Shown piece by piece: positions 1 to 35,100 of a stretch of 64,000 bases of DNA; the first letter of the stretch is position 1; each line of letters opens with the position of its first letter. This DNA is from Artemia franciscana. Lineage: Eukaryota; Arthropoda; Branchiopoda; Anostraca; Artemiidae. The stretch is taken from positions 36,589,902 to 36,653,901 of the forward strand of contig NC_088872.1 of NCBI RefSeq assembly GCF_032884065.1. Direction: 5' to 3'. The translations under genes were made by a program, and so were the position numbers. A model generated the notes under the pieces. It saw only the letters and a list, made by a program, of their open reading frames with translations, was not told the origin of the DNA and ran no database searches.

Positions 1-231
1 ACTGAAGGTAAGGAGCAACATCAAAACTCAAAACGAACAGAAATTATTCCGTATATAAGGGTTGATCCCTCCTCAATACTTCGCTCTTTACGCTAAAGCT
101 GTTGACCGTCCTTAAAAAATTGGGATAAACAACCAACCTTAGCCTAAAGACTGATATACTGAAGATGGGGAAACCCTTCATATAAGAAATAATTTCTGTT
201 TGTTTTGATGTTGTTCTTTACTTTCAGGTCA
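1..231. repeat. Foldback module of element X
   Basis: The sequence beginning CTGAAGGTAAGGAGCAAC returns in inverted form near 231 as GTTGTTCTTTACTTTCAG. Inside, a CCCTCCTCAATACTTCGCTC block is mirrored by a later GATATACTGAAGATGGGGA block. The arms are roughly 100 bp with a short spacer. The same module occurs at 24831-25115, in part at 27403-27520, and almost perfectly palindromic at 53676-53985. Confidence 0.65.
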
Positions 232-1232
232 AAAAAACCTGTTTTATATTTAATTTCTGTCTTTTTTTAAATAATGCAGGTAAATCTGATTGGTGCTCCA
301 TGAAATACACCCCCCTCAAGTTCCCATCCTCGCTGAAAACCTCCCTCCCCATAAAATTTCTTGCGGACGATTCTGCCTGAAAAATTGCCTTAGCATACTT
401 TCATTTGAAAAGGACTTATCTCCAACCAGTTTCTCGATCACTCCGGAAATGCCCTCTTCCGTGAAGTTTTTTTTTCTGAAAATCAAACTACGCGGAAAAT
501 TTCCTCCGGTACATCTCACATGCAAAATTTAGTTGGCAAAGAGAATATAAGACAATAAAAATTTCGTATAGGAATCCTGTCAAATCCCTCCAGTGTAAAA
601 TTTTTCTTCAAAATTCACCCCCCCCCTGGATATTTCCCTCTCCAAGAAAGATTCTTTCAACGAAAATCCACCCCAAACACACAAAAAAAAACGAAAAATG
701 TCTATACTTCCCAATAACAAATATCGTACGTAACCAATGGGCCAATTTCATAACTCACAGGTCTCTCCCTACGGACTCTTGGGGGGGGGGTCATTTTAAC
801 CCTAAAGACATAGTTATTTGAACTTTCTCAACTATACTGAATAAAGGGACTGTCCATCATTAAGTACGATCACCCCTGAAAAAAGAAACAAATAAACACG
901 CATCCGAGATTTTTCCTCGCATCCGTGACCTGGCAAAAGTAATAAAAATCCATATTTTTGTATATAGGAGCTTGAAACTACTACAGTAGGATTATCAGGT
1001 AGGCCGAAACTGGTGGTGTGATGTTCATCAAGATTCATTGAATTTTAGCCCCCCCCCCCTATTTAATAAATCAGGCAAACTTTCTAAGGCTTGTAACTTT
1101 TGATGGGCAACACTAAAATTGATGAATCTTATGTATTTGAAGTCAGCATAACAAGCTGATTCTTTTGATGTATCTATTGATATCGAAACTCCGTTTCTTT
1201 AATTTTGGTTACTTTTGAGCCGAGTTGATCCT

Positions 1233-2395: not shown

Positions 2396-2599
2396 CTTAC
2401 AGTTCGTTACCATGAACTGTTTGATAAGCCTAATTGGATTTGTTGCAATTTATTGAATAATTCAAATTTTTGAAGCGGACTACAATATCCTGCAATAACC
2501 CCCCGACTGAACTTGATCCAACAGTGCATGAAGATATTCTTAATTGTAGCAAAAGATCATAGACAACACATATGCTATTATTTCTAACTACTTTACAGT

Positions 2600-3030
2600 G
2601 CTACGACTAACAACTTAATGCAGAACCAAGCCGCCAGAGACCAACACAGCTGCGCACGCTCCGCCGCCATATCAATCAATTTAAATCCTTACTTTTTACA
2701 GCTTCTCCAAAAGTTTAAATTCCCCTTAAATCCTCCCTTAGGACCTCTTATCCAAATCGAAGACGAAGTGCTTGACCAAAAAGGTCGTTCTTTGGCAATT
2801 TGTCATCCTTTATCCGCAGAATATGTCCTTGTCATCTCAACTTTTATCTCATTATAGCCCTGGAAAGCGTGATAGAACCGCATTTTCCGCATAGCTTACT
2901 GTCTGTAATATGGTCAGTCAGACGGGTACCCAAATTAATCATTCGACAATTCCTCTGGAAAAAAATCTAGTAAACTACACTCCGTGTTTCGGAGCGCCCA
3001 CACTTCAGAACCATACTGCACTGACCACTA
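2600..3030 (-). pseudogene. RTE-like LINE, 3' fragment (copy A)
   Basis: Read on the minus strand, this gives broken frames resembling the C-terminal end of an endonuclease/reverse-transcriptase LINE. A QYGSEVWALRNTECSLLDFF segment (about 2965-3025) is followed by degraded sequence ending in a tryptophan-rich tail near 2640. The block is repeated at 29930-30390, in diverged form at 14995-15810, and in a short piece at about 3335-3395. The LINE at 51740-54330 is of the same general type in the opposite orientation. Stops and frameshifts exclude function. Confidence 0.55.
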
Positions 3031-3122
3031 GTGCGACTGTGGCTTCCAAAATTCAAATCTTGTTTCGTAGACTTGTATCAAATTATATGCAAGTTTTTAA
3101 ATATATACGAATTATAAAAGTA

Positions 3123-4530
3123 AGTGATATGAGAGGTAGTAACAACTGAGGTGGTAGTTGTCAGCGGGCTTAGGCCTGGGCAGGTGGGGGAGCTGTCTGA
3201 CCAGTTTTTGTGGCATTGAATTCCTTTTATTGTCTATTCTACACTTCCTAACCTTTGTCCCCCCCCCCTATCATAAAGCCGTTTCTAGTAGTGTCATAAA
3301 CCATTGTTTAAGGCATTTTTTTTCTGTTCTTTTTTGCCCACGCTTCAGAACCATGCTGGACTACTGCTGCCATTGTAGCTAAAACCGTTACTGGTAGTAG
3401 TAGTGCCAGTAGCAATCATGGCGGGAGTAATGATTAGAATGACTTGATCATCTAAGCTACCTTTTCGTGATGGCACACACTAAAAGGGGTTCAACCCTAC
3501 TGTTCAGGTAGGAATGTGTTTTACTCTCCCACAATACGTCGTCCTCAAATAACTTCTCGAAAATGTGGATTCCCAGGATCTAAACCAGGGGTTTTCTAAT
3601 GGTTTTGTGTTTACTGGTTTTTTTTCAATCCAGAAGACAAAAACTTTGTGCCCCTGTAAAAGCACACGCCTGAAAAGTCTTGGGCTAGTAGTTCAGAATT
3701 GTTGTCCCAAGTCCCCATGGAGGAACAAGGCTTAAGGTATTATAAAATAAACTGCAAATGGAGAGTGATTCGTACCAGCAAGGTTGTACCTAAGGGGGGT
3801 CACTGGTTTTAGATCCCTCTCCCCGAGATATTTGCCAATTTTTTTTATCCACCCCCCTCATTAGAAAAATCCTGGATGTGCTCTTTTGTACCAGTGCTAA
3901 TTGGAACTTAAGTTTAAAGCCACCAAACGATGTTGGAAAGCTTGCAAAAATTTAGTTCAATTAGTGTGGGGTTGAGGGTAGGAGTTCTTCTCATGTATAG
4001 AGCAAGTCTAAACATGATATCAAAAACAATCGTACTTTAGTTTGTTCTAGCAGGACGAAAAAAAGCCACGCGTAACTCTAAATATTTTGCGGTTACATTT
4101 TACCTATGCAAGTCGAAGCGACCCAAAATTTATTATGTCGATCGGGTGGTTTTAGAACATGGTGGCCGCCGTTTTACCCCCCTCCCCGCGGTAACTTTTG
4201 CAATAACAGTATAGACCAGAAAAATTCCCAGAAATCGTTATTGAGTCAACATCAATTTCAGATTTTTGATGCGGTTTTACAGTTTCTTTTGTAAGCCCTC
4301 CGAAGTTTCTGCGATACTGAAGTGGAGGTGTGGATGAAAAAGGGGCAGTCCCATTGCTATTTAGAATAAATTCTGTTCATTTGTGGGTTTAATGTTATCC
4401 TTTACTTTCATAATAACAGCGTAGACCAGAATATTCTCATAAATCATAAGAGGGTAGATATCAATTTCGCATTTTTGCTGCGTTTTTTAAAGTTTCTGGC
4501 GCAACCATCCCTTTATAAAGCCCCCATCAA
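3123..4530. other. Segment present in copy A only
   Basis: Copy B passes directly from the equivalent of 3122 to that of 4531 (30470-30480). The segment holds another short minus-strand LINE scrap (about 3335-3395, reading QHGSEAWA) and two related stretches at about 4196-4290 and 4410-4500. Each of these carries a TAGACCAGAA motif and also occurs in foldback Z (33270-33370, 34190-34390). No gene is seen. Confidence 0.5.
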
Positions 4531-5568
4531 AAAAAATGTTGGTTACGGCCCTGGGGATTATATATCAATTATATATGTATCTACCTCCACCCCCTTCTCG
4601 TCTCTCCTTTAGAACTAATTCCCTTTTTATCTGATGGCTCAATGAGACCTGGGATGTTTTGGCACTAAAATGTACCCTTTGAAGTATCCCTCTCCCTCCC
4701 AAGCTCTAAAGCATTCAGAGAACCCCATTATAAAAAATTAAGTGTTTTTTTTAAGTTCTGTAATTTGTTTGTTGCTTACACATAGTATTTGTTATTGGAA
4801 AACATAGACATTTTTCGCGGGGGAGTTTTCTGTGGGGGGACTATCTGGGGAAATTTCAGTGCGGAGTAAATTTTTGGGAATAATTTTCTTTCAACGAGGA
4901 TTTTTTTCCGCGGGGGGGGGGGTAATTGTCTAGAACTCTGGAATATCACTAGAAGACTTATCTGAATGGGCAGGTCTAGTGACCTTTTGAGCAATGATTA
5001 CTGCTATTTCATGCAATGAAACGACAATTGGACCCGGCTATGGCCACAATCCTATCATACAAAAATTACATTTATTTCTTTAATCGGTTAAAAACTATTC
5101 ACATGCAGTATAGCCTCCCAGTTATATATGTTGCACTGACATGTGATGGTGCATTCGTCCCTTAAAGTATTCACAGTTCAAACCAAATGGATGGCTACTT
5201 TTGAGAATTTATGCACAGTAGGCTATCTCTATCGGTTCCACAGTATTGAAAATTGTTCAACCCTATTCGGATGGGGTAAATTTATTTGTGCGGGGGGCTA
5301 ATACCTCAAGAAGTACGGGTTTAGGCCAAATCTATCGATTTTTGTAAGGGGTTCTTTACTTTGGAACACACTCAAGAATACGCTGTCTAAGGTCTGACAA
5401 AAACCGGTTTGGTTCTCTGGAATCGGCTATGATTTATTATTTTGAGTGATAAAACTACGATGCAGGCAGGGACGGATCTAAAGCGAAATCTTGGGGGGCA
5501 ATTATGACAAGGCTGCCGATGTCATAGTTAGGTACACCATTCACGGCTATCTTTTTCTATTGAGGACG

Positions 5569-5637
5569 GTTCGTTTAGCTAACATCACGAAGGAAATCAA
5601 TTTACTACTTACCGATCTGTTACGGATGCCATCAGTT
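5569..5637 (+). pseudogene. Decayed fragment of PDK exon 2
   Basis: These 69 bases match 32387-32455 of the functional PDK exon 2 with six differences counted by eye. They encode 23 residues corresponding to V52-V74, with three replacements (Met to Thr, Pro to Leu, Ala to Thr) and three silent changes. The first part of the exon, including the acceptor and the NACEK region, is missing. At 5638 the sequence jumps to intron sequence equivalent to about 32786, so the end of the exon and its donor are also lost. It lies inside copy A, about 14 kb upstream of the PDK start codon. It is a non-functional exon relic, not a processed copy, because flanking intron sequence was duplicated too. Confidence 0.85.
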
Positions 5638-6004
5638 GAAACAGGACCTAGGCTATTTGCAAGAATCACGTAACTCCAAAACTGTCACTTCTTTTTAGGG
5701 GTTAAAATTTTCGCTCATGTGGTTTCAAAACCAATCAGGTTTCAGTGACGTGGGTTTTTTTCCAAAAAGAAAGAAAAACATGATTGTCTTGTGGAAGTAC
5801 GTCACAGATGTAAGCCAATGAAACTAAAGTATGCATTTTTACCATGGAATAATAGGAAAGTAGATTCTCTTTGTCCTGTACAATGCATTATGAGGAATAT
5901 AATAACTCCTTATAATGCTGAGTAGTTGGTACTGAACAAGTCTAGGCGTTTACCCCCCCCCCCCCTGCGGCTGGCTTGTCTACTGTCACTTTCGACAAAA
6001 AAAA

Positions 6005-7300
6005 ACTAGAACTCTCAATTTCTGATCGAACAAGCACCCTCCGGAGTTTCTGCGACCATGAGGTGGGGTTATGGATGAGGAAGGGACAATCCCCCTCCTA
6101 TACGGAGTGAATTTTACTCATTTTGGGTTTAATGTCACTCTTTACTTTCGGTAAAATCTCTTGTTCCTTCCCCTCCCCCAAACATTTTAGCTGGTAACGA
6201 CCCTGAAGGAAGGTGGAGGAAGAAATTGGTATGTAATCCCTGTGACCGTATTCAGGACTTTTGTTTAGGGGAGTATTTTTTTCGGGGAGGGGGTACAAAA
6301 AGACTTGAATTAAACGCATCAAAAATATGAACTTGATATTTAATCCCTGTTAATTTCAGGGAATATTTTTGGTTTATCCTGTTATTATGACATTAAAGCG
6401 TAGCATTAAACCCCTAAATGAGCAGTATTTATTCCGTATAGGAGGGGATTGCCCCTTCCTCATCTCCACCTTATGGACGCAGAAATAGTCTATAGAATAG
6501 TCTACAAGAGAATGAACAGAAATCAAAAGTTTTACGATTTAATCCACTCAGGCGAGATATCACTATCACAGATGCTCTGTTTCCAATTGTTTCCTCTACA
6601 AACAATCCTAGGCGTAAAATTTACAAGTGACTGCTCGTTTAAGCTGTATATAGACAATATTGTACACAAAGGTCACTACTCAATCTAGAGTTTAACAAGT
6701 ATGCGCAGTTAGGCTTCTCTGATCGTCAGCTCTTGCTGGCGTATACAACCTACATCAGGCCTTTTCTCGAGTATTGCTGTCCCGTTTGGGGTCCCCAAAC
6801 TCAGAACACAGCTTACATGGCAGATGAACTAGAACATGTTCAAAAACGCGCTACTAGGATAATACTTGGACCCGGTTTCAGCATCTACGAAAGTGCCCGT
6901 GAGCTCTTGAATTTGCCCACCTTATTCGATCGAAGACATGAGCTAATAATGAAATTTGGGAAATCACTATTAACAAACGAGAAGCACCGATCCATACTTC
7001 TACCAGCCGCATCAATCAGCAGGCATACTAGGCATTACAACAAACTAGAACCAGTCAAGCGCCGTCCAAACAGATTCGCAAACTCCTTTGTACCATATTT
7101 CGTACGTGCATTTAACAAGTGAATTGAAAGTTGCACCGTATTCCATAAGTGTATCTAATTAGTGACCATTTTGTAATTGTAAAAGTAGCGTAATTTAGCG
7201 TTCACTTTTGAGTACTATGATAGCTATTTCAATAAACGAAGACGAATAGGAAAATTGGGAAAGTGCTCATTACGCCAGAAATTGAGAGTTGTAGTCCTTT
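6005..7300. repeat. Foldback element Z, copy A (deleted and interrupted)
   Basis: The left arm (6005-6150) and right arm (6240-6485 plus 7249-7300) are inverted relative to each other, sharing TTTAATGTCA and GAGGAAGGGACAATCC-type segments. Compared with copy B (33125-34475), the centre is shortened and the right arm is interrupted by the LINE at 6486-7249. Confidence 0.55.
6486..7249 (+). mobile_element. 5'-truncated Jockey/CR1-like LINE insertion
   Basis: The insertion has no counterpart at the matching place in copy B: sequence before 6485 and after 7249 joins directly at about 34420. It encodes the end of a non-LTR reverse transcriptase. An ILGVKFTSDCSFKLY piece (6607-6660) is followed, after a frame change, by a 129-residue frame (6733-7122) with RPFLEYCCPVWGPQ, ELEHVQKRATRIILGPGF and FDRRHELIMKFGKSLL motifs. 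The 3' part ends near an AATAAA-like tract (about 7230). The 5' truncation is typical of target-primed reverse transcription. It is related to the minus-strand fragment at 1690-2290. Confidence 0.7.
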
Positions 7301-8384
7301 TTTATAAGTCGAAAGTCACTGGACACCAACAAGCCAAGGGAGGGGGAGAGGGTAACGCTGCCTCCAGTATTAAACACCCAACTCTGTACATATCAACTCA
7401 GTTTAAAATTCGCTCTGCTCAATAATTACTTATTATCCATTTTGAGAGGTATTTAAGGATCAAGAACAGATGGAGGGCGCTGTTCCAAAAAAACTAACTT
7501 TGTGGATTTGTATTTTTATTGTTCTCCTGGGATAATCCATTGGGTGTATACATGACATAAATTTGGAACATACACCCAAACTAAATTAAGGATGTTATCT
7601 ATACTTGTATCATCCATTTTACCAGTACGCCATCGTTATCGGATACCAAGATACTCAAGATTTTGATAATACCCTTTGTTTTGTTTTTTTCAAAATACAT
7701 TTATTTTATTTAAATTTTCTTGCTTAAAGAAGTAGTTTGAAATTGAATTTGTCTATATTAAAATCGGTTTTGCCTATATATCTCAAGGGCCTAAAAACCA
7801 TTGTCGTTCACAATGTATAATACATTTTATAATCATCGCCCAATTCATATAATAAATAGACCTATAAGGTACAATAATGCATTTATAACGAACTCTTAAT
7901 AATCAAGCTTTTACCTCAGTGAAAATAGGAAGGTGTGGCATAAATTACGCAATTTATTAATTAGTGCTATGTTTACTTAGGATATTACCTATGGTTGTGT
8001 GATTTGAAGATGTCCTTGGGTAATTGTCCAAGCTTAGCTCCATGTTTACTTTTCGATTTGTTCGTTTGCGAAAACAAGTGCAACTTTTCAAAGAACCAGA
8101 AATAATTCATAAGTAAAATATTTCTTAGAGAGACAACTGTTGTACGTATCCAGTCGCTTGGTGTAGCCTTTGAAGACCATTCTAGATGAATAGATTAATC
8201 GGCAAAAGCCTACAAGAAGATATGCAGCAGCAAAATAACAATTGTAATCTGGTATGGCCACGAGGGGGAGGCGGTACTTATGTATTATCCTGAACACACT
8301 CAAGAAGTTTGCTTTGTGTGACCTGCGTAAAATTGATTTTTTCTTGCTTTTGGTTATAATTAGCTTATTCTTTCGTGAATTAAA

Positions 8385-9010
8385 CTACGGTGCAAGTATA
8401 TTTTAATTAAATATTGAATATATAGATGTCGTTAGGTTAGGTATTTAATATAATGCGTTCTGGGCGGCCTGCTTTCCATACTTTTTTCTCTAGTTTCCGT
8501 AATTTTGTTATTAACGTATTATAATTTCATCATATTTTGGTATATTTCATTATTATTAACCTAACTTCTCTTGTTGAGTGGGTTTGGGATAATACACAAG
8601 TACCAGTGAGGCTTTGGACTCATTCGCCTTCCTCAAGTTTCGAGATTTGCTCTCAAATTGCACCTGATCCCCTTATTTTTTATTTTAGCCCCCTTCAAAT
8701 TCATTTTAGTACTTACGTGTTATGGCGACCACACCAAAGAAGTGAAGCTAGATTAAGCAAAATGAAATATACCAAAACACGAAGAAAGTAAAATACTTTA
8801 ATTACAAAACTGTGGAAACTACAACAAAGAATTATGGAAAGCAGGCTGCCAGAACGCGTTGTATTAAAAAACTAACTTAGCCAACTACCAACTCGTTACA
8901 TACCGTTTATCTTGCTAAGGCTAAGCTGATGACCTCCGAGTGAACACTGAAAACCGTTTTCATTACAGATCAAAAATAAAGTATAGTCGCTATTACACGT
9001 AGGTATCTTC
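8385..9010. repeat. Inverted-repeat element Y (MITE-like), copy A
   Basis: The left arm (about 8430-8620, with CGTTCTGGGCGGCCTGCTTT and TTTTGGTATATTTCATTAT) is mirrored by the right arm (about 8700-8900, with GGAAAGCAGGCTGCCAGAAC and AATGAAATATACCAAAACAC). The arms are roughly 190 bp. The same element occurs in copy B (36925-37570), and single arms occur at about 31550-31750, 22430-22560 and 55745-56050. The stretch from 8270, with GGTACTTATGTATTATCC, repeats part of the arm end once more. Confidence 0.7.
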
Positions 9011-9088
9011 ATTTCTACGTACTTGCCTGGCTACGAGGAAATGAAACTACTAATTGTGTTGCGAGAGCAACACTTTGGTTTTGTCCCG

Positions 9089-9523
9089 TTTTTTTTTTCC
9101 TATGCCGCCGATCTCAGCTTATTCATGGAAACTAGTGAGGGTCTAACCTTTGCGGTTTTTGTGTGGACCTCGTGGAAAGTGTGGACCTCAGGCTGGGTTG
9201 ATGAATATGACATTATATTTTGGAAAGCTCCGCAGAACTCTTGCCTGGGGCCAAAAAGGATGGTTTTTGCTTATCCACGAGCCAGAGCCTATGGTGTGCG
9301 AAGTGAAGCGGAGTTATATAGCCTATGTCACAGAGGAGTATCTCAAGTTGTGCAGCCAAGCTTTCGTTTCATCAAAGCATGTTTCTGCTTTCGAGTGGAA
9401 AGCCCCGTTCAAGCAGGCAGGCACCACTTTCAAATTGAAGATGGACTAAAATCTATAAGTGTTAAATATATGCGGCAGTTACCCAGCCCCACAGCCAATA
9501 TATCTTCTTTGAGTGATAAATAG
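9089..9523 (+). other. Open-frame block inside the Helentron-like element
   Basis: One frame stays open to a stop at 9523, and a second frame is open over 9150-9449. The block is visibly richer in G and C than its surroundings. The first frame contains WKVWTSGWVDEYDIIFWK and the second WFLLIHEPEPMVCEVKRSY; neither is recognised. No credible in-frame ATG belongs to the second frame at its beginning. Elements of this type often carry pieces of host genes, so a captured exon is one explanation; chance in GC-richer DNA is another. It is not called as a gene. Confidence 0.3.
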
Positions 9524-9994
9524 GAAAATTTACAGAAGCAAAAATGTGGCATTTTACCACGGGTCCGAAAGTGCTGGCATCTATTTTTCTATCCATTTCT
9601 GTTCATGATTTCAGCTGAATTTATCATTCGGTTTTTCAGACTTGAGATTGCGGTAGAGAAATGGTATCAGATGTGCCTAATAAACTTTAAAATTTCTCTC
9701 ATTGCTAAAGAAATTGGAACTTATCCTTTGCTCCTTTCTAAGTGGTGACGTTGGAAAGTTGGCCTACGGCAAAAAAAATAAACTTTTGAACTAAGACACA
9801 TAGATTTTTTTTTTCGACGGCAATCGATAGCTCTTGATGAGCTGATCAAAGAATATGATATCCATTTTTCGGTACAAAAATTCCTTCATGAGGTATACCA
9901 GTTTGAAAGTTTCAAGGAGTTGACAACTTCAGTAGTAAGGTACACACTGAAACGAAATCTAGGCCAATAGAAATTGTGAGACATATAGAGGACT

Positions 9995-10245
9995 TGTAAG
10001 CAACAGTTGGCTGTTAGGTAATAATCACCTTAGGCAATGAGGGGTTAAAAACGTTTGCTAGTTGGTGTATCTATTATTTGTTTCCAGTGTATTTGATGGT
10101 AAACCAATTTGTTTCCAGTGGTAAGACATGTAGGAGACTTGTAAGTAATAATTTGCTGTTAGGCTACAGTCAACTTCAGCGATGAGGGGTTTGCAACTAT
10201 GCTAGTTGGTGTACCCATTTATTTGTTTCCGGTGAACTTGATGTC
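9995..10245. repeat. Two diverged direct repeats, about 144 bp apart
   Basis: Segments at 9995-10095 and 10139-10245 share an ACTTGTAAG start, a TGCTGTTAGG-type centre, GATGAGGGGTT and a GCTAGTTGGTGTA end. They lie inside the Helentron-like element. No coding signal was seen. Confidence 0.6.
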
Positions 10246-10382
10246 TATCACGGGAGAGGGACTTGTAAGAATTTGTTCACTTTGGCTAGAAATTTGTGCA
10301 AATTGGTGCACATTGTACTCGATCTCTTTAAATCTGACAGAATTAAGTGTTTACGCAACAGATATAAACGATTACATAAAAC

Positions 10383-10925
10383 AATGAGGTAGCTTCGTAA
10401 TAATTAGTGTCACCTATGGTATTTTAATCCTGAAAAGTTACGGATAGCTTTATAATAACAAATAGATTATATAAGATATTGTTCCAAGTTTTCATCCGTC
10501 ACGATGTCTACGATTGAAAAGGATAAAGTTCAACTGGCTGCAAAGTCAATTTAGTCCCTTCTTTCGATATTAGTTTGTAGTTGTTGTTTTTTCAACGCTG
10601 AGGAATAGCCTTTTGTCATGTGATAACTGATTGCGTTCTTGTTAGAATATACCGTTTTAAAAACTTCGATAGGCTGACAACTTCATCATTTAACCGATAG
10701 TGAAGAAACAAGCACAATCGAGAATGCAAAATAATGAGATAGTTTCGTAATAATTAATAGAATGTCATCTATGGTATTTTGATCCCGAAAAGTTAGGGAT
10801 AGCTTTATAATACCAACTAGATTATATAAGATATTGTTCCGAGTTTTCATGCGTCACGGTGTCTACGATTGAAAAGGATAAAGTTCAACTGGCTACAAAG
10901 TCAATTTAGTCCCTTCTTTCGATAC
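10383..10925. repeat. Direct duplication of about 190 bp, period about 348 bp
   Basis: 10383-10573 and 10733-10925 are close copies. Both carry TCGTAATAATTA near the start, TTATATAAGATATTGTTCC in the middle and GATTGAAAAGGATAAAGTTC near the end. The intervening sequence is unrelated. The duplication is inside the Helentron-like element, where interior tandem repeats are common. Confidence 0.75.
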
Positions 10926-10995
10926 TATTTTTTTTTCAACGCTGAGGAATACCTTTGATCATGTGATTACTGATCGACAGCGAAGAAACAAAATC

Positions 10996-11074
10996 AAAGT
11001 GTTGCTCTCGCAACACTTTAGCCGGCGAAGCCGGACAAAGGTTGCCGCAACACTTCACGTTGCCCGGGCAACGT
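10996..11074. repeat. Three consecutive GC-rich hairpins at an element end
   Basis: 10996-11019 is a perfect 10-bp stem with a TCTC loop. 11022-11034 is a CCGGC/GCCGG stem with a GAA loop. 11057-11074 is the perfect 18-nt palindrome ACGTTGCCCGGGCAACGT. All lie within 90 bases of the 3' end of the element at 9056-11082 and contrast with the AT-rich surroundings. Confidence 0.85.
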
Positions 11075-11215
11075 AGGTCTAGTTTAATTTTTTGTTATAC
11101 ATTTAAAGTATTCTCACATGTATGTGGTTTGCCTTTTTTTGAATCTGTCCTTCCCCCGGAAAAGAATCCCTCCGTACAAGCCAGATTCGTTTGAAGGTCC
11201 CAGCCCTGATTGTTA

Positions 11216-14411: not shown

Positions 14412-14891
14412 TTAATAACGGAACCTTCTAATATTCAGGATAAAAGAGGTAATAGACCAATCTGGTTGCTTCTGGGGGCTAAAATCACGATGGAATCGAG
14501 TCAGAACCTCAATCAGAAAGGCATCTCCTGCTTCGGGTCTCCTCTTGATTCCCAAACACAGTAAATCCAGATCACATAGCATGGATTGCTCATCCTCACT
14601 AACAGCTAAAGTAGTGGTGGCACCAAACGTTATTTTATTGATATATGGTCTGACTGTGTCGCTCAATGTCTCAGATTCAGCTTCTATCTCTTCTAGTCCT
14701 TTTATGGATGTCAGAGGTGCCAAAGGATAGTAATTTTGATCCTGCATACACATCAGAACTTCCTTAACAGCATCTTTGGCTGATCTTTCGAATGAAATTA
14801 AGTCAGGCATGTCAGGGTCCCATTTTTTTAGTGTACGGTCAAAATTCCAAGCTACTCTAAATGATCCAAAAAACAGCTGACAATAGCGTTT
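14412..14891 (-). CDS. Last exon of an unrecognised gene
   Basis: On the minus strand the acceptor CTTCTGTTTTAG (just above 14891, after a T-rich tract) opens a frame of 159 residues ending in TAA at 14412-14414. It begins KRYCQLFFGSFRVAWNFDR and continues through a first internal Met at 14810. It is rich in acidic and hydrophobic residues without low complexity, including an EEIEAESETLSDTV stretch and KRRPEAGDAFLIEVLTRFHR. No signal peptide, zinc site or known catalytic motif is visible, and the product is not recognised. An AATAAA follows on the same strand. A candidate preceding exon (15953-15997) joins in frame, giving SLHW|KRYC. Its 5' end would face the PDK start (20047). Confidence 0.65.
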   Translation of the reverse strand, partial: KRYCQLFFGSFRVAWNFDRTLKKWDPDMPDLISFERSAKDAVKEVLMCMQDQNYYPLAPLTSIKGLEEIEAESETLSDTVRPYINKITFGATTTLAVSEDEQSMLCDLDLLCLGIKRRPEAGDAFLIEVLTRFHRDFSPQKQPDWSITSFILNIRRFRY

Positions 14892-20046: not shown

Positions 20047-20146
20047 ATGAGGCTGACAAAAGTTGTGTTCACTTTAGCAAGACATATTGAGCAGTATGCC
20101 AAGTACTCCCCATCCTCCCTTTCAGTCAAGCAGTTTATGGATTTTG
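20047..20146 (+). CDS. Pdk: PDK exon 1 (codons 1-33 plus 1 nt)
   Basis: ATG at 20047 is the first in frame after a TAA at 20008. It encodes [20 protein letters not shown] and then [13 protein letters not shown], the conserved PDK N-terminus; the first residues form a short basic/hydrophobic mitochondrial-type leader. The donor is GTAAGT at 20147. It ends in phase 1, and the split Gly codon is completed by exon 2. Confidence 0.92.
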
Positions 20147-23100: not shown

Positions 23101-26100
23101 CTAGAAAATTCAGGTGAGATCGAGAATGGTATTTGTTTTGTTTACATGCCTAACGGCATGCTTTTCTCCTTTATTTAAGTTTCTTCAACCAAACAGAAGG
23201 CTGTTGACGGAGGTGTGACTTTATATAGATTATTGCGTAGACAAACCAGTTTTAGACTATACATAGGCACACAAGTTTTAAAACTGATAAAAAATTCCTT
23301 ATGAATTGGAAGTATTATATTAAATAAAGCCTAAGTAGGCTGAATGGGAAGAATCTATGAAAGTCGAGTAGACAAGAAAGAGAGGGAGATACCCCCTTCC
23401 TCCTATGAACTGTTTGTCCGGCTCGTAAAAACTTAACATAACAAAGTAAATATAAAACAATTTTTGATTTGTTTATTTTTATAAGTTTTGTATATTAAAC
23501 CCCCCACACCCGAGGAAATTTTTTTGACCCCCCCCCCCGAAAAAATTATGGATATGTCCCTTATTGTCTCATTTTGAGACATTAATACCGAAAACTATTG
23601 CCCCTAATGCTTCTTCGAATTCATCACGTCGTTAAGTCGTCTGAGCCCTACAAAATTATGAAACTCCCCCATTCCACCCTGTTCTGTCTTGGCCGCTCAC
23701 CATGATATCTGCAAGGATTTAGCTATTTTTACACATTAATCACACCTGCCCCATAAAAAGCCAAGATTTATGAATTACATCTGTTTTCCTTGATTTCAAC
23801 GTCATACTTGTAGTACCGAAGCGAAAAATTGAAGTAGCAAGGAGTATGATAAGCATATATCGACAATTATCTATTTCCGTCTATTGCTTATTCCTACTAT
23901 GAATTTTTATATTTTGCTAGATTCATCTTACTGATAGCCAGACTTCTGTTCTGAGCAGTATTGCATCCTGTGAGGAAATATCACTATATTTTAGTGATTT
24001 GTTGGTTGATTTAGTGATTTTCTTCAATAATCTAGTGTTATTTATTTGCTGTTTAGGCAATACAAAAATCATTAGAAATAGTGATAAATCCCTAGGGGTG
24101 GCAATTCTGGTTCTAAGCTTTCATTGTTCTTTTCCAATTTGTGGAACTCTGACTGGTCAGTCACAAATTTATGCGGAATTTGAATATAATATGGCCGGAC
24201 ATGCGTCTAATGTACTTATTCATAAAACCTTTTGGCTATTTACTAGAACTACTCACTCCTTTTTTTCACCTTTCCTGTTTTGCACATTCGTGCCTGATTC
24301 TAAAATGCACCTGTCTTATTATCTGGGTAGTCTTTGAACTTATTTTTCCGGAGTTTCATAATATTTATAATATGCATAGTGTTTTAATGTTTACTGGGTC
24401 AATGAATACTAAGCTGCAATTTCAAATAGATATTCAATCAATATAGGTCATGGTCAAGTAAATGCATTTTATTTGGTTTGAAAAGGAGCATAAAAATTCC
24501 ATAGGGACCAAAAAAACCGTTCAGGGACATCCGAGGAATTCTCGAGTCTATTTAGTTGCCTTTAATTTAGTGGGTTGCTTAGTTTATAGTAATTTATGCA
24601 GTCGTTGCATTACCTTTACATTTGACCTGCTCTTAATTTTTATCTGACTGACATAGTTTAGGATGTTTCGTAACCTTGTTAGTTTTTAAGGATTCTAAAA
24701 CAATGTACTAATAGCACAAAGGATTAGGATAGCAAAAGGATGCAACGATGGCAAACAAAAACAAAAAAGATTTGCTTTTAAGCTCAATGGCATTTATTAA
24801 TAATTAAAGAAAAAATACAAGCTTTTTAACTGAAGGCAAGGAGCAACATTAAAACTCAAAACGAACAGTAATTATTCCGTATATGAAGGTTTGCTCCCTC
24901 CTCAATACCTTGCTCTTGACGCTAAAGCTGTTGGTACTTCTAAAAAAAGCTCCCTATTCTAACTAAACGGCCCCAGTGTTTCAGTAGCCGCTCTTAAAAA
25001 AAATTACAATCAACCAAACTTTAGCCTAAAGAGCAAGATATTGAAGAGAGGGAAACCCTTCATATACGGAATAATTTCTGTTTGTTTTGAGTTTTAATGT
25101 TGTTCCTTACTTTCAGCAAAAAAAAAAGTTATTTTTACATTTAATTTATGTTCTTTTTTTTTAATAATGCAGGTAAAACTGACTGGCCCTCCATGAAATG
25201 CACCCCCTCTCTCACGGGAAGCTCCTCCGTGAAAATTTCATCCAACGTGAAGTACGTAAAGTACAATAAAAATAATTTCAGATAGAAATGTCAATTCCCT
25301 CCAGTGTAAAATTTTTCCTTGAATACTCACCTCCCCTCCCCGGAAATTCCCTTTCCAAGGAAGATTCTCCTAATAGAAATCCACCTCAAGCGCAAGATCC
25401 CCCCCCCCCGAAAATTGTCTATACTTTACAATAATATATACCATACGTAAGCAATGGGCCAATTTGATAACTCACAGGCCTCTCCCCACTGACTCAGGGG
25501 GTCATTTAACCCTAAAGACATAGTTACTTGACCTTTCAACTGTACTGAATAAAATGGCTGTCTATCATTTCGTACGATCATCCCTGAAAAAATAAACATG
25601 CATCCGTGATCTGTCCTCTGGCAAAAGTAACGAAAATCCACATTTTTATGGCACTAGTTATTTACCAAGTGACATAGCGATCGCAAATTCTGTCGGTTGG
25701 TCCCGGTTTTGCTAGTTTGGGCACTTCCAGATAAGCTAGGACGATGAAATTTGGCAGGTGTATCAGGGACCAAACCGGATTAATTTAAATATAGTCATTT
25801 CCCCGATTCGGCCATCTGGAGGGTGGGGGGACGGTTAATTCGGAAAAAAATAGAAAAAATGAGGTATTTTTAACTTACGAACGGATAATCGGATCTTAAT
25901 AAAATTTAATATTTAGAAGGATATCGTGTCTCAGAGCTCTTATTTAAAATCCCGACTGGATCTGGTGACATTGGGGGGAGTTGGAGGGGAAAACCTGAAA
26001 TCTTAGAAAATGCTTTGAGTGGAGGGACGCGGATGAAACTTGGTGGGAAAAATAAGCACTAGTCATAGATACGTGATTGACATAACCGGAACGGATTTGC

Positions 26101-29100
26101 TCTCTTTGGGGGAGTTGGAGGGGCACCCAATTCGGTAATTAGAAAAATTAGAAAAAATGACGTGTTTTTAACTTACGAGCGGGTGATGGGATCTTTAAAT
26201 GAAATTTGATATTTAGAAGGATCTCATGTTTCAGAGCTCTTATTTTTAATTCGGCTGGATCCGATGATGTTGGGGGGAGCTGGAGGAGGTAACTGGAAGC
26301 TTTCGAAAACGCTTAGAGTGGAGAGATCGGGATGAAACTTGGTGGGAAAAATAAGTAGATGTCCTAGATGCGTGATTGACATAACTGGGCCGGAAACACT
26401 CTCTTTTGGAGAGTTTTTTTTGGGGGGGGGGCATAATTCGGTAATTCGGAAAAATTAGAAAAAAGAGGTATTTTTAACTTACAAATTGGTGATCAGAACT
26501 TAATGAAATTTGATATTTAGAAGGATCTGATATCTCGGGTTGAAACTTGGTGGCAAGAATAAGCACAATTCTTAGATACATGATTGACATAACCTAATCG
26601 GATCCGCTCTCTTTGGGAGAGTTGGGGGGATTCCCAGTGCTTTGGCGTTTTCGGTTCTCTGGACTTGCTAGGACGATTAAAATTGGTAGGCGTGTCTGGG
26701 ACCTGCAAAAATTGACTTGATAATAGTCATTTCCCCGATTCGACCTGGGCGATCGGATCTTAATAAAACTTGATGTATAGAAAGATCTTGTGTCTCAGAT
26801 GTTCAATTTTCAATTCGGATTGGATCCGAGGACATAGGGGGTGGAGGGGGGAGCAAAAATATTGGAAATCAGAAATCTTGGAGAACGCTTAGAGTGGAGA
26901 GATCGGGATGAAACTTGATGGGGAGAATAGGCACGACTTCTAGATACGTGATTAACCTTACTGGACGGGATCTGCTCTCTTTGGGGGGGGGGGGGGGGTA
27001 TTTCTAGTGCTTTGGTGAGTTTGAGAATAAGCACAAGTTATTGATACGTGATTGGCATAAGCGGACCGGATCCGATCTCTTTGGGAGAATTGGAGGGATA
27101 TCTAGTGCTTTGGTGAGTTCGGTGCTTCTTGGCATGCTAGGAAGATGAAATCGATATCTCTAGTACCGAGTCTAATTTTAGGTTCCAACCTCGTCACAAG
27201 TGCCATATGAGCTCTTGGCTCTGAATTGAAAAGTGCTAACAGCTTTAGCGTAAGGAGTAAGGTAATGAGGAGTGGGCAAGCCCTCACATAAGGAATAAAT
27301 CTTCTAAAATTAATTTGCAAATTTTGTTTTTCGTACAGGATGAGCCAAATTCGAACCTGTACTAGCGGAAAAACGTCCAGAAATTGAATAAAAAGTGTAA
27401 GTTTTTAACTGAAAGTAAGGAGCAACATTAAAACTTAAAACGAACAGAAATTATTCCTCATATGAAAAGGGGCTGCCCCCTCCTCAACGCCTCACTCTTT
27501 AAGCTAGAATTTTATTTTTTTATAAGTAGAGTTGTGACAAAAAATCAAACTTGCATAGCCAAAAATAGCCAGTAGTTAATTTTTCTTTATCCGGAGGCTC
27601 GCCCGTGTAATTTCAAATCTAGATTTTTATGGTAGGCTAAGAATTTATGTCATCGAACCTTGTTTTTATATTATTCAATGACTGGAAACAATTGTGCAAA
27701 ATACCTCTTTAATTACAATTTTTGTTATTGAACTTTAGCAAAGCGAAGTTAATCAATTTGAGCAAAAAAGAATGATCGGAGATATCGAAACCATTGTAAC
27801 AAATATAGAAAGTGAAAACATCGATAGATCGTTTAATCAAATTATCGCCAACACATCCAATTTAAAGCGAACATCTCATCGTAAAACTTACCTATTAACA
27901 GACTTGAAGCAAAACAGTAGTTCCCTTTTGATGCATGAGCTAATTGCCTGTTGGCAGTTAGATTGCCTCTGCATCGCCTTTGTCAACATAGCGTTAATCA
28001 GCCATGCAAGGAGAAAAGGTGACGTAAATTATGAAAATAAGGTACAACACTTTCCTGGGGTTCTGACCATAGCTGACTTCTAAAAAAGAAAAAAACGGGA
28101 TGAGACAGGCGTAAGATAGGGATGACAATCAGCAAAACATACAAAATTTTAGAACAGCACGCTACTGTAAACGGAAAGAACAACCTTCTTCAATTTTTTC
28201 AAAGTGAGCAGCGATGGTGGTTTACTTACTAACCCAAATAACTTGTGTTTATTCGGAATGAGAAGAGGTTGATATCTTTGACTTAATCTCGCTCTCTGAT
28301 TCTTGGAAAATGGGATAATCAATCTGTATCATTGAAATGGAAAATTTGTCTTAGATCAAGAAAATCGAGAAATACAAAAGGTATTTTTGTCTTTGATAAT
28401 TTTTCCGTTCTCCTGGGGTGAGCTATAGCATGGTCTAAAATTATTATTTGATTTTTTCTTGACAATTTACAGCCCTCGTAGATTTGAAGGGTAACCATGA
28501 TTCCTGGACACTGTTGATCTGAGTTTACTATTATGTGTTTTAAATGACAGAGAATCAATGTATTCTCCTAAATATCTAAAAAATATTCACTCTTTTAAAG
28601 AAGAAGTCCCAATACTAATGTTTTGAATTCTTGGAAAACGTTTAGAGTGTAGAAATCGGGATGGAACTTGGTGGGAAGAATAAGCACATGTCCTAGATAC
28701 GCTATTCACATAACCGGATCTGCTCTCCTTGGTGGAGTTGGGGGGCACCTAATTCGGGAAAATTAGAAAAAATGAGGTACTATTAACTTACGAAGGGGTG
28801 TTTGGGTCTTATTGAAATTTAATATTTAGAAGGACCTCGGGTCTCAGAGCTATTATTTTAAATCCTGACTGGATCCGGTGACATTGGGGGGAGTTGGAGG
28901 AGGAGACTGGGAATCATGGAAAACGATTAGGGTGGAGATGAAACTCACCTGGATCGTGATGAAACTTGGCGGGAAGAATAAGCACATGTCCTAGATACGC
29001 TATTCACATAACCGGACCGGATCCGCTCTCTTTGGGGGAGTTGGTGGGGATTTACTAGTTTGTGCACTTCCCGATAAGCTAGGACGATGAAAGTTGGCAG

Positions 29101-32100
29101 GTGTATCAGAGACCTGACTATATTAAGTTAGAAATAGTCTCTTCCCCGATTCGACCATCTGAGGGGGGGGGGGAGTGAACAAGATAGTTGAGAAGAATTT
29201 TATTTGCCGATGAAACCAATGATTGTTCTTCTTAAGTATGGCTTGTGGTCTAGGGGTACGAATCTCGCTTAGAGTGCGAGAGGTCTCAAGTTCGAATCCC
29301 AGATCACCCAATTTTGCATGCAGAAGATCCGAAACTAGATCGTGATCAATATAGCGATCACTGAAAGTTGGCAGGTGTAACATGGACCCGACCAGATTAA
29401 ATTAGAAATAGTCGCTTCCCCGATTTGACCATCTGGGGGGAGTGGAAGGACGGTTAATTCGGAAAAATTAGAAAAACTAAGGTATTTTTAACTTACGAGT
29501 GGGTTATCGGATCTTAATGAAATTTGATATTTAGAAGAACCTCTTTAGAAGGACTTAGTGGGAAGAAGCTCTTGGCTCTTCCGACCTCGTCACAAGTGCC
29601 ATATGAGCTCTTGTTGTATATAGGAGCTTGAAACTACTACAGTAGGGTTCTCAGGTAGGCTGAATCTGATGGTGTGATTTTCATCAAGATTCCTTGAATT
29701 TTAGGGGGGGGTTCCCCTCTTGAAAATATCTGGCAAAACTGGTGAATCTTATATATTTGGAATCAGCTTAATAAGCTGATTCTTTTGATGTATCTAATGA
29801 TATAAAAATTCTACTTTTAAAGCTTCAGTTACTCTTACTTTTAGGATCCAACAGTGCATGAAGACATTCTTAATTGTAGCAAAAGGTAATAGAGAACACA
29901 TATGTTACTAATAATAAATACTGTTACTATGCCACGACTAACAACTCACTGCAGAACCATGCCGCCAGAGACCAACACAGCTGCACACGCTCCGCCCCCA
30001 TATCGATCAATTTAAATCCTCACTTTTTACTACTTCCCCAGCAGTTTCAATTCCCCTCAAATTCTTCCTTATGACCTATTATCCAAATCGGGGACTAAGT
30101 GCTTTTTCTTTGACCCTGATAGTTGAACGGAAAGGTTGGTCTTTGGAAATTAGTCATCCTTTATCTGCAAAATGTGTTCTTGCCATCTCAACTTTCCTCT
30201 CATTATAGCCCTGGAAAACGTGATAGAACCGCGTTTTCGTGTAGCATAGTGTCTTTAATATGGTCAGTCAGACGGATACCCAAAATAATCATTTGTCAAT
30301 TCCTCTGGAAAAAATCTAATAAATCCCCCTCTGTGTTTTGGAGCGCCCACGCTTCCGAAGCATACTGCGCTGATCACTACCGCCACTGTAGCTTTCAAAA
30401 TTCAAATCTTGGTTCGTAGACTTGAATCAAATTTTAACAAGTTTATTAATATATACTAATTATAAAATGTAAAAAATCTTGGTTACGGCCCTGGGGATTA
30501 TATGTCAATTTCTACCTCCACCCCCTTCTCGTCTCTCCCTTAGAACTAATTCTGTTTTGATCTGATGGCTCAATGAGATCTGGGATGTTTTGGCTCTAAA
30601 ATGCACCCTTTGGCGTATCCCCCTCTCTCCCAAGCTATAAAGCAATTGGAGAACCTCATAATAAAGGTTTAAGTGCTTTTTTAAGTTGTGTAATTTCTCC
30701 ATTGCTTACACATAGTATTTATTATTGGAAAACAGTGGTATTTTTCGCGTGGGAGTTTCCTGTGGTGGGATTGTCTGGGGAATTTTCAGTACGGAGTAAA
30801 TTTTTGGGATTAATTTCCTTTCAATGAGAATTTGTCCGAGGGGGGGGATAAATGTCTAGAACTGTAGAATATCACTAGAAGGCTTATCAGATCGGGCAGG
30901 TCTAGTGACCTTTTGAGTAATGATCACTGCCATTTTATGCCACGAAACCACAATTTTGCCGGCTATGGACACAATCCTATCATGCGAAAAATTATTATTA
31001 TTTTTTTTTAATCGTTTAGAAACTAGTCACATGCAGCATAGCCTTCCAAGTTATATATGTCTCACTGACATGTGATGGTGCATTCGTCCCTTAATGTATT
31101 CACAGTTTAAACCAAACTGATGACTACTTTAAAGAATGTATGTGCAGTAGGCTATCTCTATGGGTTGCACAGTATTGAATAGTTTTCTACCCTATTCGGA
31201 TGGGATCAGTTTATTTGGGCGGGGGGGGGTCTCAATAAGTACGGGTTTAGGCCAAATCTTACTATTGTTGTAAGGGGTTCTTTACTTGTCTGTTAAACGA
31301 AACACAATTAAGAATGATGCTGTTCTGACAAAATCGGTTTGGTTCTCTGGGATTAGCTATGATTTAATTATTTTGAGTCATAAAACTACGATGTAGGCAG
31401 GGACGGATCTAGAATGAAATTTTGGGGGGCAATATGACAGGTGCAAATAATTGACTCAATTGACAAATTTATTCTAAAAAATAGTGAAAAAAAGGGAAAG
31501 AGTGTGCCAGAAAAATCTTGAGGGCCCAGGCCCACCTAGATCCGCCAGCTGATGTAAGTATATTTCAATCAAGTATTTAGTAGTGGTTAAGGGTTAGGCA
31601 TTTAGTATAAATGCCTGCTTCCATAATCGTTTGTCCATAATTTTTTAGTTTCCATACTTTTTTTCTAAAGTATTACATGATTTTCATGTTTTGTTATATT
31701 TCACTTAACTTCTCGGTTGTGTTCCGTTTAACCGACAAGTACCAGGGATTCTTATGATCAATATAGATGGTGTATTCGACTATTAAAATTACCTCCTTTG
31801 GGAGAAGAAATTTGGACTGAACTTACAATATCGGTCCTTATGGGGGAATAGCTCACCTCTTTATGCAGAAATAATATTAGTGCGAAATAAGAGATCAAAT
31901 TGAGAAATCAGAAGCAATATTCCCCTCTCCTGGAAGTAATGCCCCCCCCCAGAAGTCATGTAGGCGATTTCGGAGCCATCCCAACTCTGTTCGAATAAGT
32001 TTAGGGGGGATTTCTTTTTCAGGGATGATTTTCTTTTTATTTTGGAAATAACGTTATTCAAAAGTTAAACTTTTGCGTTAAAAAGGGAAGAGCACTTGCC

Positions 32101-35100
32101 CCCCCCCCTGCCCCTAGTTGGTGTCCCTGTGTGGGCCGCTGAAGTTCACCTTTAGAACATTTGAACTTATTAGGGATCATGCTAATCAGCATGCCGTCCA
32201 AATTAAAAAAAAAATCTGAAGGAACAGATTTTGAGTTAGGTACACCATTCACGGCTATCTTTTTCTATTGGGGACGTTTGTGAAATTGTTTAGTGTCTCT
32301 TTCAATTTTTTCTAGAGCTGCTTGAATTTCTAGGTCAAAATGCTTGCGAGAAAGATTCTTTTGAATTTCTTCGCCAAGAACTGCCAGTTCGTTTAGCCAA
32401 TATCATGAAGGAAATCAATTTACTACCTGCCGATCTGTTACGGATGCCATCCGTTGTAACTGTACATAAATGGTACGTGGACAGTTTTAAAGATGTGTTG
32501 GAGTTTACAGACAAAGATTCAGGAGACTCCAAGGTGTTGCAATCGTAAGTTACCTCTAACCCACTATTGCTATTCAACCGTCAGGGTATAATTATGAGCC
32601 AACTTATAAATTGTAAGGATCGCCACTTAAATTTCTAGATTAAGCATTTTTAATTTGTTTTATTGTAATTTTCTCATACCATTAAGGCCGAATTGAAATT
32701 ATATTTATTGTTTTAAGTTTTAAGTAAATTTTGTTGCATGAAATCAGTTTGTCATTTGACTCGTTCAACTACTATACAGAGAACCACAGGACCTAGGCTA
32801 TTTGCAAGAATCATGTATTTCCAAAACTATCAGTTCTTTTTAATGGTTAAAGTTTTTGTTCATGGGGTTTTAAAACCAGTCAGGTTTCAGTGACGGGGGG
32901 TTTATTCCCAAAAAAAGACATGATTGGCTTGCGAAAGTACGTCACAGATGTAAGCCAATGAAACTAAAGCATGCATTTTTGCCATGGAATAACAGGAAAG
33001 TATATTCACTGTGTCCAGTGCAATGCATTATGTGGAGTATAACAAGTCCTTATGGTGCTGCTTGTCTACATTCACTTTCTTGTCTACAGGCTTGCTTGTC
33101 TACACTCACTTTAGACTTATAAAGAAACTAGAACTCTCAATTTCTGATTGAATGAGCACCCTCCGGACTTTCTGCCACCATGAGGTGGGGTTATGGGTTA
33201 CGAAGGGGCAATCTTTCTCCTATACGGAGTAAATTCTACTCGTTTTGGGGTTTAATGTCACTCTTTACTTTCATAATAAACAGTATAGACCAGAAATATT
33301 CCCAGAAACCAACAGGGATTAAGTATCGATTTCAGATTTTTGATGTGTCTTTTAAAGTTTTTTTTTTGTATGCCCCCCCCCCCCCTCGAAAAAATAACGC
33401 CCCAAACTACTGACCTTAATTCGGCCTTGGGGATTTTTTCATCAATTTCTTTCTACACCTCGTCTCTCACTCAGAACTAATTCTGTATTTATCTGATGGG
33501 TCAATGCGAGTTGGGAAACTTTGGCATTAAAATCCACTCTTTGAGGTATATTCCTTCCTCCCTAACTATTCGATATATTTTAAGGTCTAAACAAATTTCT
33601 CTGTCTTAGGTAATTTTCCTATTGTTTTACAGTTCCAAACATTTGCATATAAGGACTCTAAACCTGTACAATGGGGTTCTCTGATTGTTTTGCAGTTAGG
33701 TAGGTAGGGAGATATCTCAAAGGGCGTATTTTAATGCAAAAACATCCCAACTCTCATTGAGGCTTTTGGTAAATTCAAAATTAGTTCTGAGAGAGAGAGA
33801 CGAGGGGAGGGCAGGCCCGTTACGTATGGGGAGACAACCTCCCCCGATGATTTTGGTCACTCGGTAAAAAAAAGAAGTCGGTAAAACCGCGGCGGCCGCA
33901 ATTTTCCATTTGGTTAAGTAAACAGCATTAGAATAGTACTATGATATGTACCGAAATCTGAACCTCGGTTGGTAAATATAGTGGTTTTACCGACTCATGC
34001 AGTGATTTTTCGTATTGTATTCAAAACGGCCATTATGCTAGTTTTTGACAAAAATAGTCGATGAAAACGACCAGCCAGTCGGTAAAATCTCTTGTTCCTT
34101 TCCCTCCCCCAAGCATTTTAGCTACTAACGACCCTGAGGAGGGTGGAGGTATAAATTTATATGTAATCCCCATGGCCGTATTCAGGACTTTTGTTTAAGG
34201 GAGTAATTTTTTCGGGGGAGGGGTACACAAAGACTTGAATTAAACGCATCAAGAATGTGGGCTTGATATTTATACCCTGTTAATTTCTGGGAATATGTCT
34301 GTTCTATGCTGCTATTGTGAAATTAAAGCGGAACATTAAACCCCCAAATGAGCAGAATTTATTTCTTATAGGAGGAAATCGTCCCTTCCTCATGTCCACC
34401 CCCACCTTATGATCGCAGAAAATTGGAAGGGTGCTCATTACGTCAGAAATTGAGAGTTCCAGTCCTTTTTTTTTACAAGTCGAAAGTCATTGGACACCAA
34501 CCAGCCACGGGAGGGAGGTAACGCTGGCTTCAGTATTAAACACCCAACTTTATACACATCAACTGAGGTTAACATTCGCTCAGCTCAATAATTACCTATT
34601 ATCCACTTTGAGAGGCATTTAAGTATCAAGACCAGATAGAGGACGCTGTTCCAAAAAACTAATTTTGTGGACTTGTATTTTCCTAGTTCTCTATCTTACG
34701 TTCTCTTGGGATAATCCATTGGGTGTTTACGTGACATAAATTTGGAACATAGCCCCAAACTAAATTAAGTATATTATCTAGACTTGTCTTACCATTTTAC
34801 CAGTACGCCATAGTTATCGGGTACCAAGATACTTAAGATTTTGATAATATCCTTTGTTTTTTGTTATTTTTTTTTTTCAAAATACATTTATTTTGTTTAA
34901 ATTTTTTTACTTAAAGAAGTAGTTTGAATTTGAATTTGTCTATATTAAAATCGGTTTTGCCTATATATCTCAAGGACTAAAAACCATTGTCGCATAAAAA
35001 AAATTGTTGTTCATAGTATATAATATATTTTATAATCATCGTCCAATTCATATTAATAGACCTATAAGGTACGATAATGTTTTTATAACGGAATCTCTTA

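Follow-up and report, generated by a model that had tools for sequence, protein, structure and literature searches.

A clipped copy of PDK exon 2 upstream of the gene in Artemia franciscana, probably left by an old tandem duplication

A stretch of 64,000 nucleotides of the Artemia franciscana genome (contig NC_088872.1 of assembly GCF_032884065.1, positions 36,589,902 to 36,653,901 of the forward strand; hereafter the window) contains a gene for the mitochondrial enzyme pyruvate dehydrogenase kinase (PDK) and, in front of it, 69 bases (5569–5637) that closely resemble part of the second exon of this gene. The locus raises the question of how a fragment of exon 2 came to lie upstream of the gene to which it belongs, and of whether it serves any purpose there. 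A preliminary description, made from the sequence alone, had regarded the fragment as a relic within a duplicated segment. The comparisons reported here suggest, with a probability that we put at roughly 0.6, an old tandem duplication, the upstream copy of which subsequently decayed.

The alignment of 5569–5637 with 32387–32455 is ungapped, and 63 of the 69 bases are identical (BLAST E = 1.3e-19). Numbered from the ATG of exon 1 at 20047, the 69 bases correspond to codons 52–74. Their six differences (five transitions and one transversion) are synonymous in codons 55, 56, and 73 and replace residues in the other three cases (M58T, P65L, and A66T). The preliminary description was accurate on the codon range and on the numbers of differences and replacements, as it was in placing the fragment upstream of the gene (it precedes exon 1) and its source 27 kb away (exon 2 sits 26.8 kb downstream). 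The exonic match extends to 5640 (codon 75, V75E), or to 5642 with two ambiguous bases. A chance match was rejected, the next best ungapped 69-base site on both strands of the window matching at only 34 of 69 positions (mean 18, standard deviation 3.6). No identical match to the relic or to the exon stretch was found in the collections viral_contigs and genome_contigs, which are not eukaryotic. Because M58 and P65 are conserved in the four PDK2 rows of the PDB search output, M58T and P65L most likely arose in the relic copy. The proportion of replacement changes, three of a mere six, is compatible with neutrality (p = 0.25). The divergence of the relic (6/69, 8.7%) is compatible both with the noncoding rate found below (p = 0.58) and with half that rate (p = 0.31). 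The half rate would be expected had the dead copy alone changed; 69 bases are too short to separate the two.

The source exon (exon 2) is preceded by a TTTCTAG acceptor and followed by a GTAAGT donor at 32545. Its translation matched PDK1–4 chains in PDB (best E = 3.6e-23) and PF10436 in Pfam; six other frames of the window gave no Pfam match, although two of the six carry PDK exons according to the PDB search. The coding part of exon 1 comprises 33 codons plus one base and ends at a GTAAGT donor (20147). We take it to belong to PDK on the strength of a motif, and across the joint with exon 2 the translation reads DFG followed by QNACEK. From exon 2 through the exons at 43.7 and 55.1 kb, the matched residue numbers of the PDK chains rise along the forward strand. 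The source gene thus looks intact over the exons examined, which are a subset of its exons, and it is probably functional, because these exons are intact.

The similarity is not confined to the exon. Nine pieces of 2515–11211 (copy A, upstream) are collinear, in direct orientation, with pieces of 29845–37751 (copy B, within the gene). The paired pieces differ at 522 of 4388 aligned bases, or at 516 of 4319 (11.9%) when the exon is left out, and over 40 segments of 100 aligned bases each the divergence of the block averages 11.9 (standard deviation 3.1). The offset between the copies shifts from 24.7 to 28.7 kb with insertions and deletions, while the order of the pieces stays the same. Some pieces consist mostly of sequence unique within the window (for example 777 of 979 bases in 4531–5509, and all 123 bases of 11089–11211), and others are mostly repeat (among them 8381–9056, with 55 unique bases of 676). 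On these alignments, the homology of the two copies and their orientation, order, and divergence can be regarded as demonstrated. The preliminary description had named a lack of paralogy outside the 69 bases as grounds for refutation, and the alignments did not refute it. Its statement that the flanking introns are paralogous is supported for 46 bases ending at 5571 and for about 500 bases from 5641. Since intron sequence was copied along with the exon, DNA and not mRNA was the template, as had been claimed. A processed pseudogene, which would lack introns and have its exons joined, was rejected because sequence flanking exon 2 occurs on both sides of the relic; nothing was found in favour of a retrotransposed fragment of PDK mRNA, the probability of which is negligible. 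It is also highly improbable that two haplotypes, or misjoined contigs, were placed side by side by the assembly. Differences between copies A and B of this size lie far above the usual allelic difference, each copy has insertions and deletions of its own, the exon is truncated in one copy alone, and the flanks beyond 11211 and 37751 differ.

Both ends of the exon are missing from copy A, as the preliminary description had noticed. In the regional alignment, the partner of 5568 is 32276 and that of 5569 is 32387; the 110 source bases in between (32277–32386), which include the acceptor and the start of exon 2, are absent from the copy. On the other side, 5641 onward pairs with 32786 onward, and 327 source bases (32461–32787 or 32459–32785) are missing there; with them went the last part of exon 2, its donor, and the beginning of intron 2. 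Because the exon is ancestral, both gaps are read as deletions in the copy; the truncation of the exon and the derived status of the upstream copy are in this sense established by the alignment. Two deletions would thus have clipped the copied exon to 74 bases or fewer and removed both splice sites, and with the exon ends and splice sites gone on both sides its coding capacity is lost. Two bases (AC) are common to the two sides of the right junction and strictly none to those of the left (read by eye), and the deletions presumably arose by end joining. Farther into the flank, 794 bases of source intron 1 (31440–32233) face only 16 bases of the copy (5510–5525).

That the relic has been retained for some use, for instance as a cryptic exon or as a regulatory element acting at the RNA or DNA level, is very improbable. 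Its 69-base frame is open; six neutral changes would keep it open in 87% of cases, and the open frame therefore carries little meaning. Directly before the relic, on the same strand, stands a pyrimidine-rich tract that ends in AG (TATCTTTTTCTATTGAG), and only 2 of the 46 adjoining bases differ from the source. Against these points, the true splice sites are deleted, two conserved residues are changed, and the low divergence spans just 46 bases and may be due to chance. Scarcely credible, too, is a special case in which the upstream unit keeps its own PDK promoter and exon 1, outside the window on the left, and its transcription passes through the relic and on into the real gene, either using the AG before 5569 or yielding a regulatory RNA that overlaps PDK sequence. 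No sign of function was found in the sequence of the relic, and it is presumably not transcribed.

What kind of duplication produced the two copies is best approached from the right edge, where the homology stops abruptly at 11211/37751. Comparison of the adjoining 300, 1000, and 3000 bases gave no score above the best of 20 shuffles. The homologous sequence is in direct orientation and ends within intron 2; in copy A the sequence leading up to exon 1 comes next, and leftward the homology continues as far as the window goes. This combination leads to the tandem reading. According to it, a unit of about 26.5 kb, reaching from the 5' flank through exon 1, intron 1, and exon 2 into the start of intron 2, would have been duplicated head to tail long ago. 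The breakpoint inside intron 2 would have left the upstream unit as a 5' gene fragment without later exons. It would have been free to decay because the duplication ended within intron 2 and the later exons were absent, and it would then have gained substitutions, repeat insertions, and deletions. That the duplication was in tandem and included exon 1 is itself a deduction from this arrangement. The decayed exon 1 of the upstream unit would sit some 4.7 kb beyond window base 1; a search within the window found no second exon 1 (best other match, E = 0.09). The description of a duplicated segment upstream of the gene accordingly holds as to position, but the copy appears to be one unit of a tandem pair rather than a segment dropped in.

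An account that we consider unlikely, though worth weighing, is a dispersed segmental duplication, in which some 8–13 kb (intron 1, exon 2, and part of intron 2) were inserted upstream of exon 1, the later decay of the relic being no different from that in the tandem account. Template switching may have begun in the repeat copies that flank both left edges: just left of 2515 and of 29845 lie members of one repeat family, oriented alike, that could have primed a switch, and 2515/29845 is the obvious edge of the homology. This account requires an insertion besides the copying event. The edge, moreover, owes part of its appearance to insertions that disturb both copies there. In copy A, about 1.15 kb has been inserted into the dispersed repeat at the left edge. 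In copy B, the same repeat holds a satellite-like insertion of about 4 kb, and the repeat tail and the next 87 bases of A are lacking. Farther left, pieces continue in order (1–339/24829–25235, 552–959/25263–25647, and 955–1216/29611–29836). Differences over their full BLAST length are 0.113, 0.141, and 0.128. In four hand-trimmed stretches, from which non-aligning parts such as 315–551 are excluded, 105 of 840 bases differ (12.5%), a value close to that of the main block (Fisher p = 0.64). A third copy of the repeat (C, at 52.2–54.0 kb) differs by 17.6% from A and 16.6% from B (p = 0.006 and 0.03), two of the five B–C pieces overlapping on the C side, where the repeat is palindromic. A and B were the nearest pair in 99.75% of 2000 bootstraps. 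A divergence between the A and B repeats that equals that of the block and is smaller than that from the third copy fits joint copying of repeat and block, which these figures favour without proving it. The homology starts at window base 1, and nothing therefore marks that base as its end. The pairing of 2515–11215 with 29846–37755 in the preliminary description is thus real, with limits at 2515–11211 and 29845–37751, but its left edge is doubtful, since collinear pieces reach base 1; 2515 is probably not the true left limit of the duplication.

Several observations weigh against the tandem duplication as just described. The left continuation is a repeat with other copies in the window, and independent repeat insertions at matching places are possible. 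The contrast with the third copy weakens once an overlapping A–C piece that had been dropped (1–206 versus 53692–53907, 11.1%) is kept, the A–C difference becoming 142/875 (16.2%), and some A–C and B–C comparisons go down to 11%. A three-way repeat alignment of 428 columns gave 20% for A–B, 28% for A–C, and 32% for B–C, figures that exceed the pairwise ones because poorly aligned columns were kept. A fourth repeat fragment near 27.4 kb gave 14.7% and 16.4% in two comparisons, which were left unpooled. Among the 59 other repeat matches of at least 150 columns in the window, seven differ by 13.6% or less, two of them by 0 through gap placement. For the 87 bases of A from the repeat tail to the block (2428–2514), B has nothing that corresponds; on the tandem reading, B must have lost them. 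The missing second exon 1 fits the tandem model yet gives it no positive support. Finally, the start of the copied unit falls to the left of the window, and the junction at 11211/11212 stands without an unduplicated relative for comparison.

The insertions at the left edge have features of their own. The one in copy B (25648–29610, intron 1) consists of satellite-like tandem and scattered repeats, including a unit of about 299 bases (25836–26536) and a tRNA-Ser call (29239–29311), and is absent from the paralogous copy at 957/958 and from the third copy near 52535. The insertion in copy A (1235–2387) has a likely short target duplication (CCTTA, read by eye) and a reverse-transcriptase-like frame on the reverse strand (1696–2010; by eye, with no Pfam match); 1650–2173 resembles 6608–7123 in inverted orientation.

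Leftovers of this kind are familiar. Partial gene duplicates are reported to be common, accounting for 21% of 290 young pairs in C. elegans and 53% of pairs in D. pseudoobscura (Katju 2012, PMC3449122). A schematic in that paper, in which a duplicate broken in intron 2 takes in the 5' flank and the first two exons, depicts the structure proposed here. The PDK copy differs from the duplicates treated there in its greater age (noncoding divergence of about 12%), its largely decayed state, and the absence of its exon 1 copy from the window. With the unprocessed (duplicated) pseudogenes of a human and mouse catalogue (PMC1484586) it shares a DNA-level copy with intron, a disabled coding sequence, and an expected neutral decay; it differs in that a single clipped exon remains in view. 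Homology to a gene, copied introns and flanks, and lost coding capacity allow the relic to be classed, on sequence grounds, as a probable fragment of an unprocessed pseudogene. A catalogue that rests on coding matches could miss it. Both intron-breaking partial duplicates and unprocessed pseudogenes being well described in these sources (PMC3449122, PMC1484586), the PDK relic is one more example, old and decayed. Among titles and abstract openings, nothing relevant was found on PDK together with exon duplication. The relic is an ordinary leftover of partial gene duplication, a common type of genome fossil, and a clean case of a duplication break within a gene leaving an unsupported, decaying fragment. 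The paired introns, their relationship being known, could serve to gauge local neutral change and insertions and deletions in this genome. For annotation, the locus warns against taking a PDK match in front of the gene for a second gene or an alternative exon.

Table 1. Positions within the window of the PDK exons, the relic, and the duplicated sequence
Feature	Position	Strand	Basis or remark
Copy A, upstream (bounds of the preliminary description)	2515–11211	+	nine collinear pieces with 29845–37751
Likely left continuation of copy A	1–1216	+	dispersed repeat; less certain than the remaining block
Copy B, source, within the gene (from intron 1 across exon 2 into intron 2)	24829–37751	+	collinear pieces
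Proposed 26,540-base tandem unit with the intact gene portion	11212–37751	+	deduced; unit junction at 11211/11212
Intron 1 remnant adjoining the relic	5526–5571	+	44/46 identical to 32234–32279; last three bases overlap the relic start
Exon 2 relic	5569–5642	+	74 bases versus 32387–32460, 7 differences; last two bases common to both sides of the deletion junction
Intron 2 remnant adjoining the relic	5641–6149	+	partner of 32786–33272
PDK exon 1, coding part	20047–20146	+	motif, donor
PDK exon 2, origin of the relic	32334–32544	+	PDB and Pfam matches, splice sites
Stretch with a further PDK exon	43650–43880	+	matches PDK1 chain residues 217–277
Stretch with a further PDK exon	55006–55314	+	matches PDK3 chain residues 335–376

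Other repeats and frames were observed in the window. Long, near-palindromic, foldback-like repeat pieces occur at 8433–8879, 36975–37440, 33458–33805, and 24802–25146, some of them with more copies in the window. The source copy has a stretch that copy A lacks (35630–36922), and in it lies an Rfam tRNA match on the reverse strand (36132–36195), possibly a tRNA-derived short interspersed element (SINE). An open frame of 159 residues on the reverse strand (14412–14891) had no Pfam match and looks like a protein fragment. At 46042–47014, a 489-base unit is present in two tandem copies that match at 88%.
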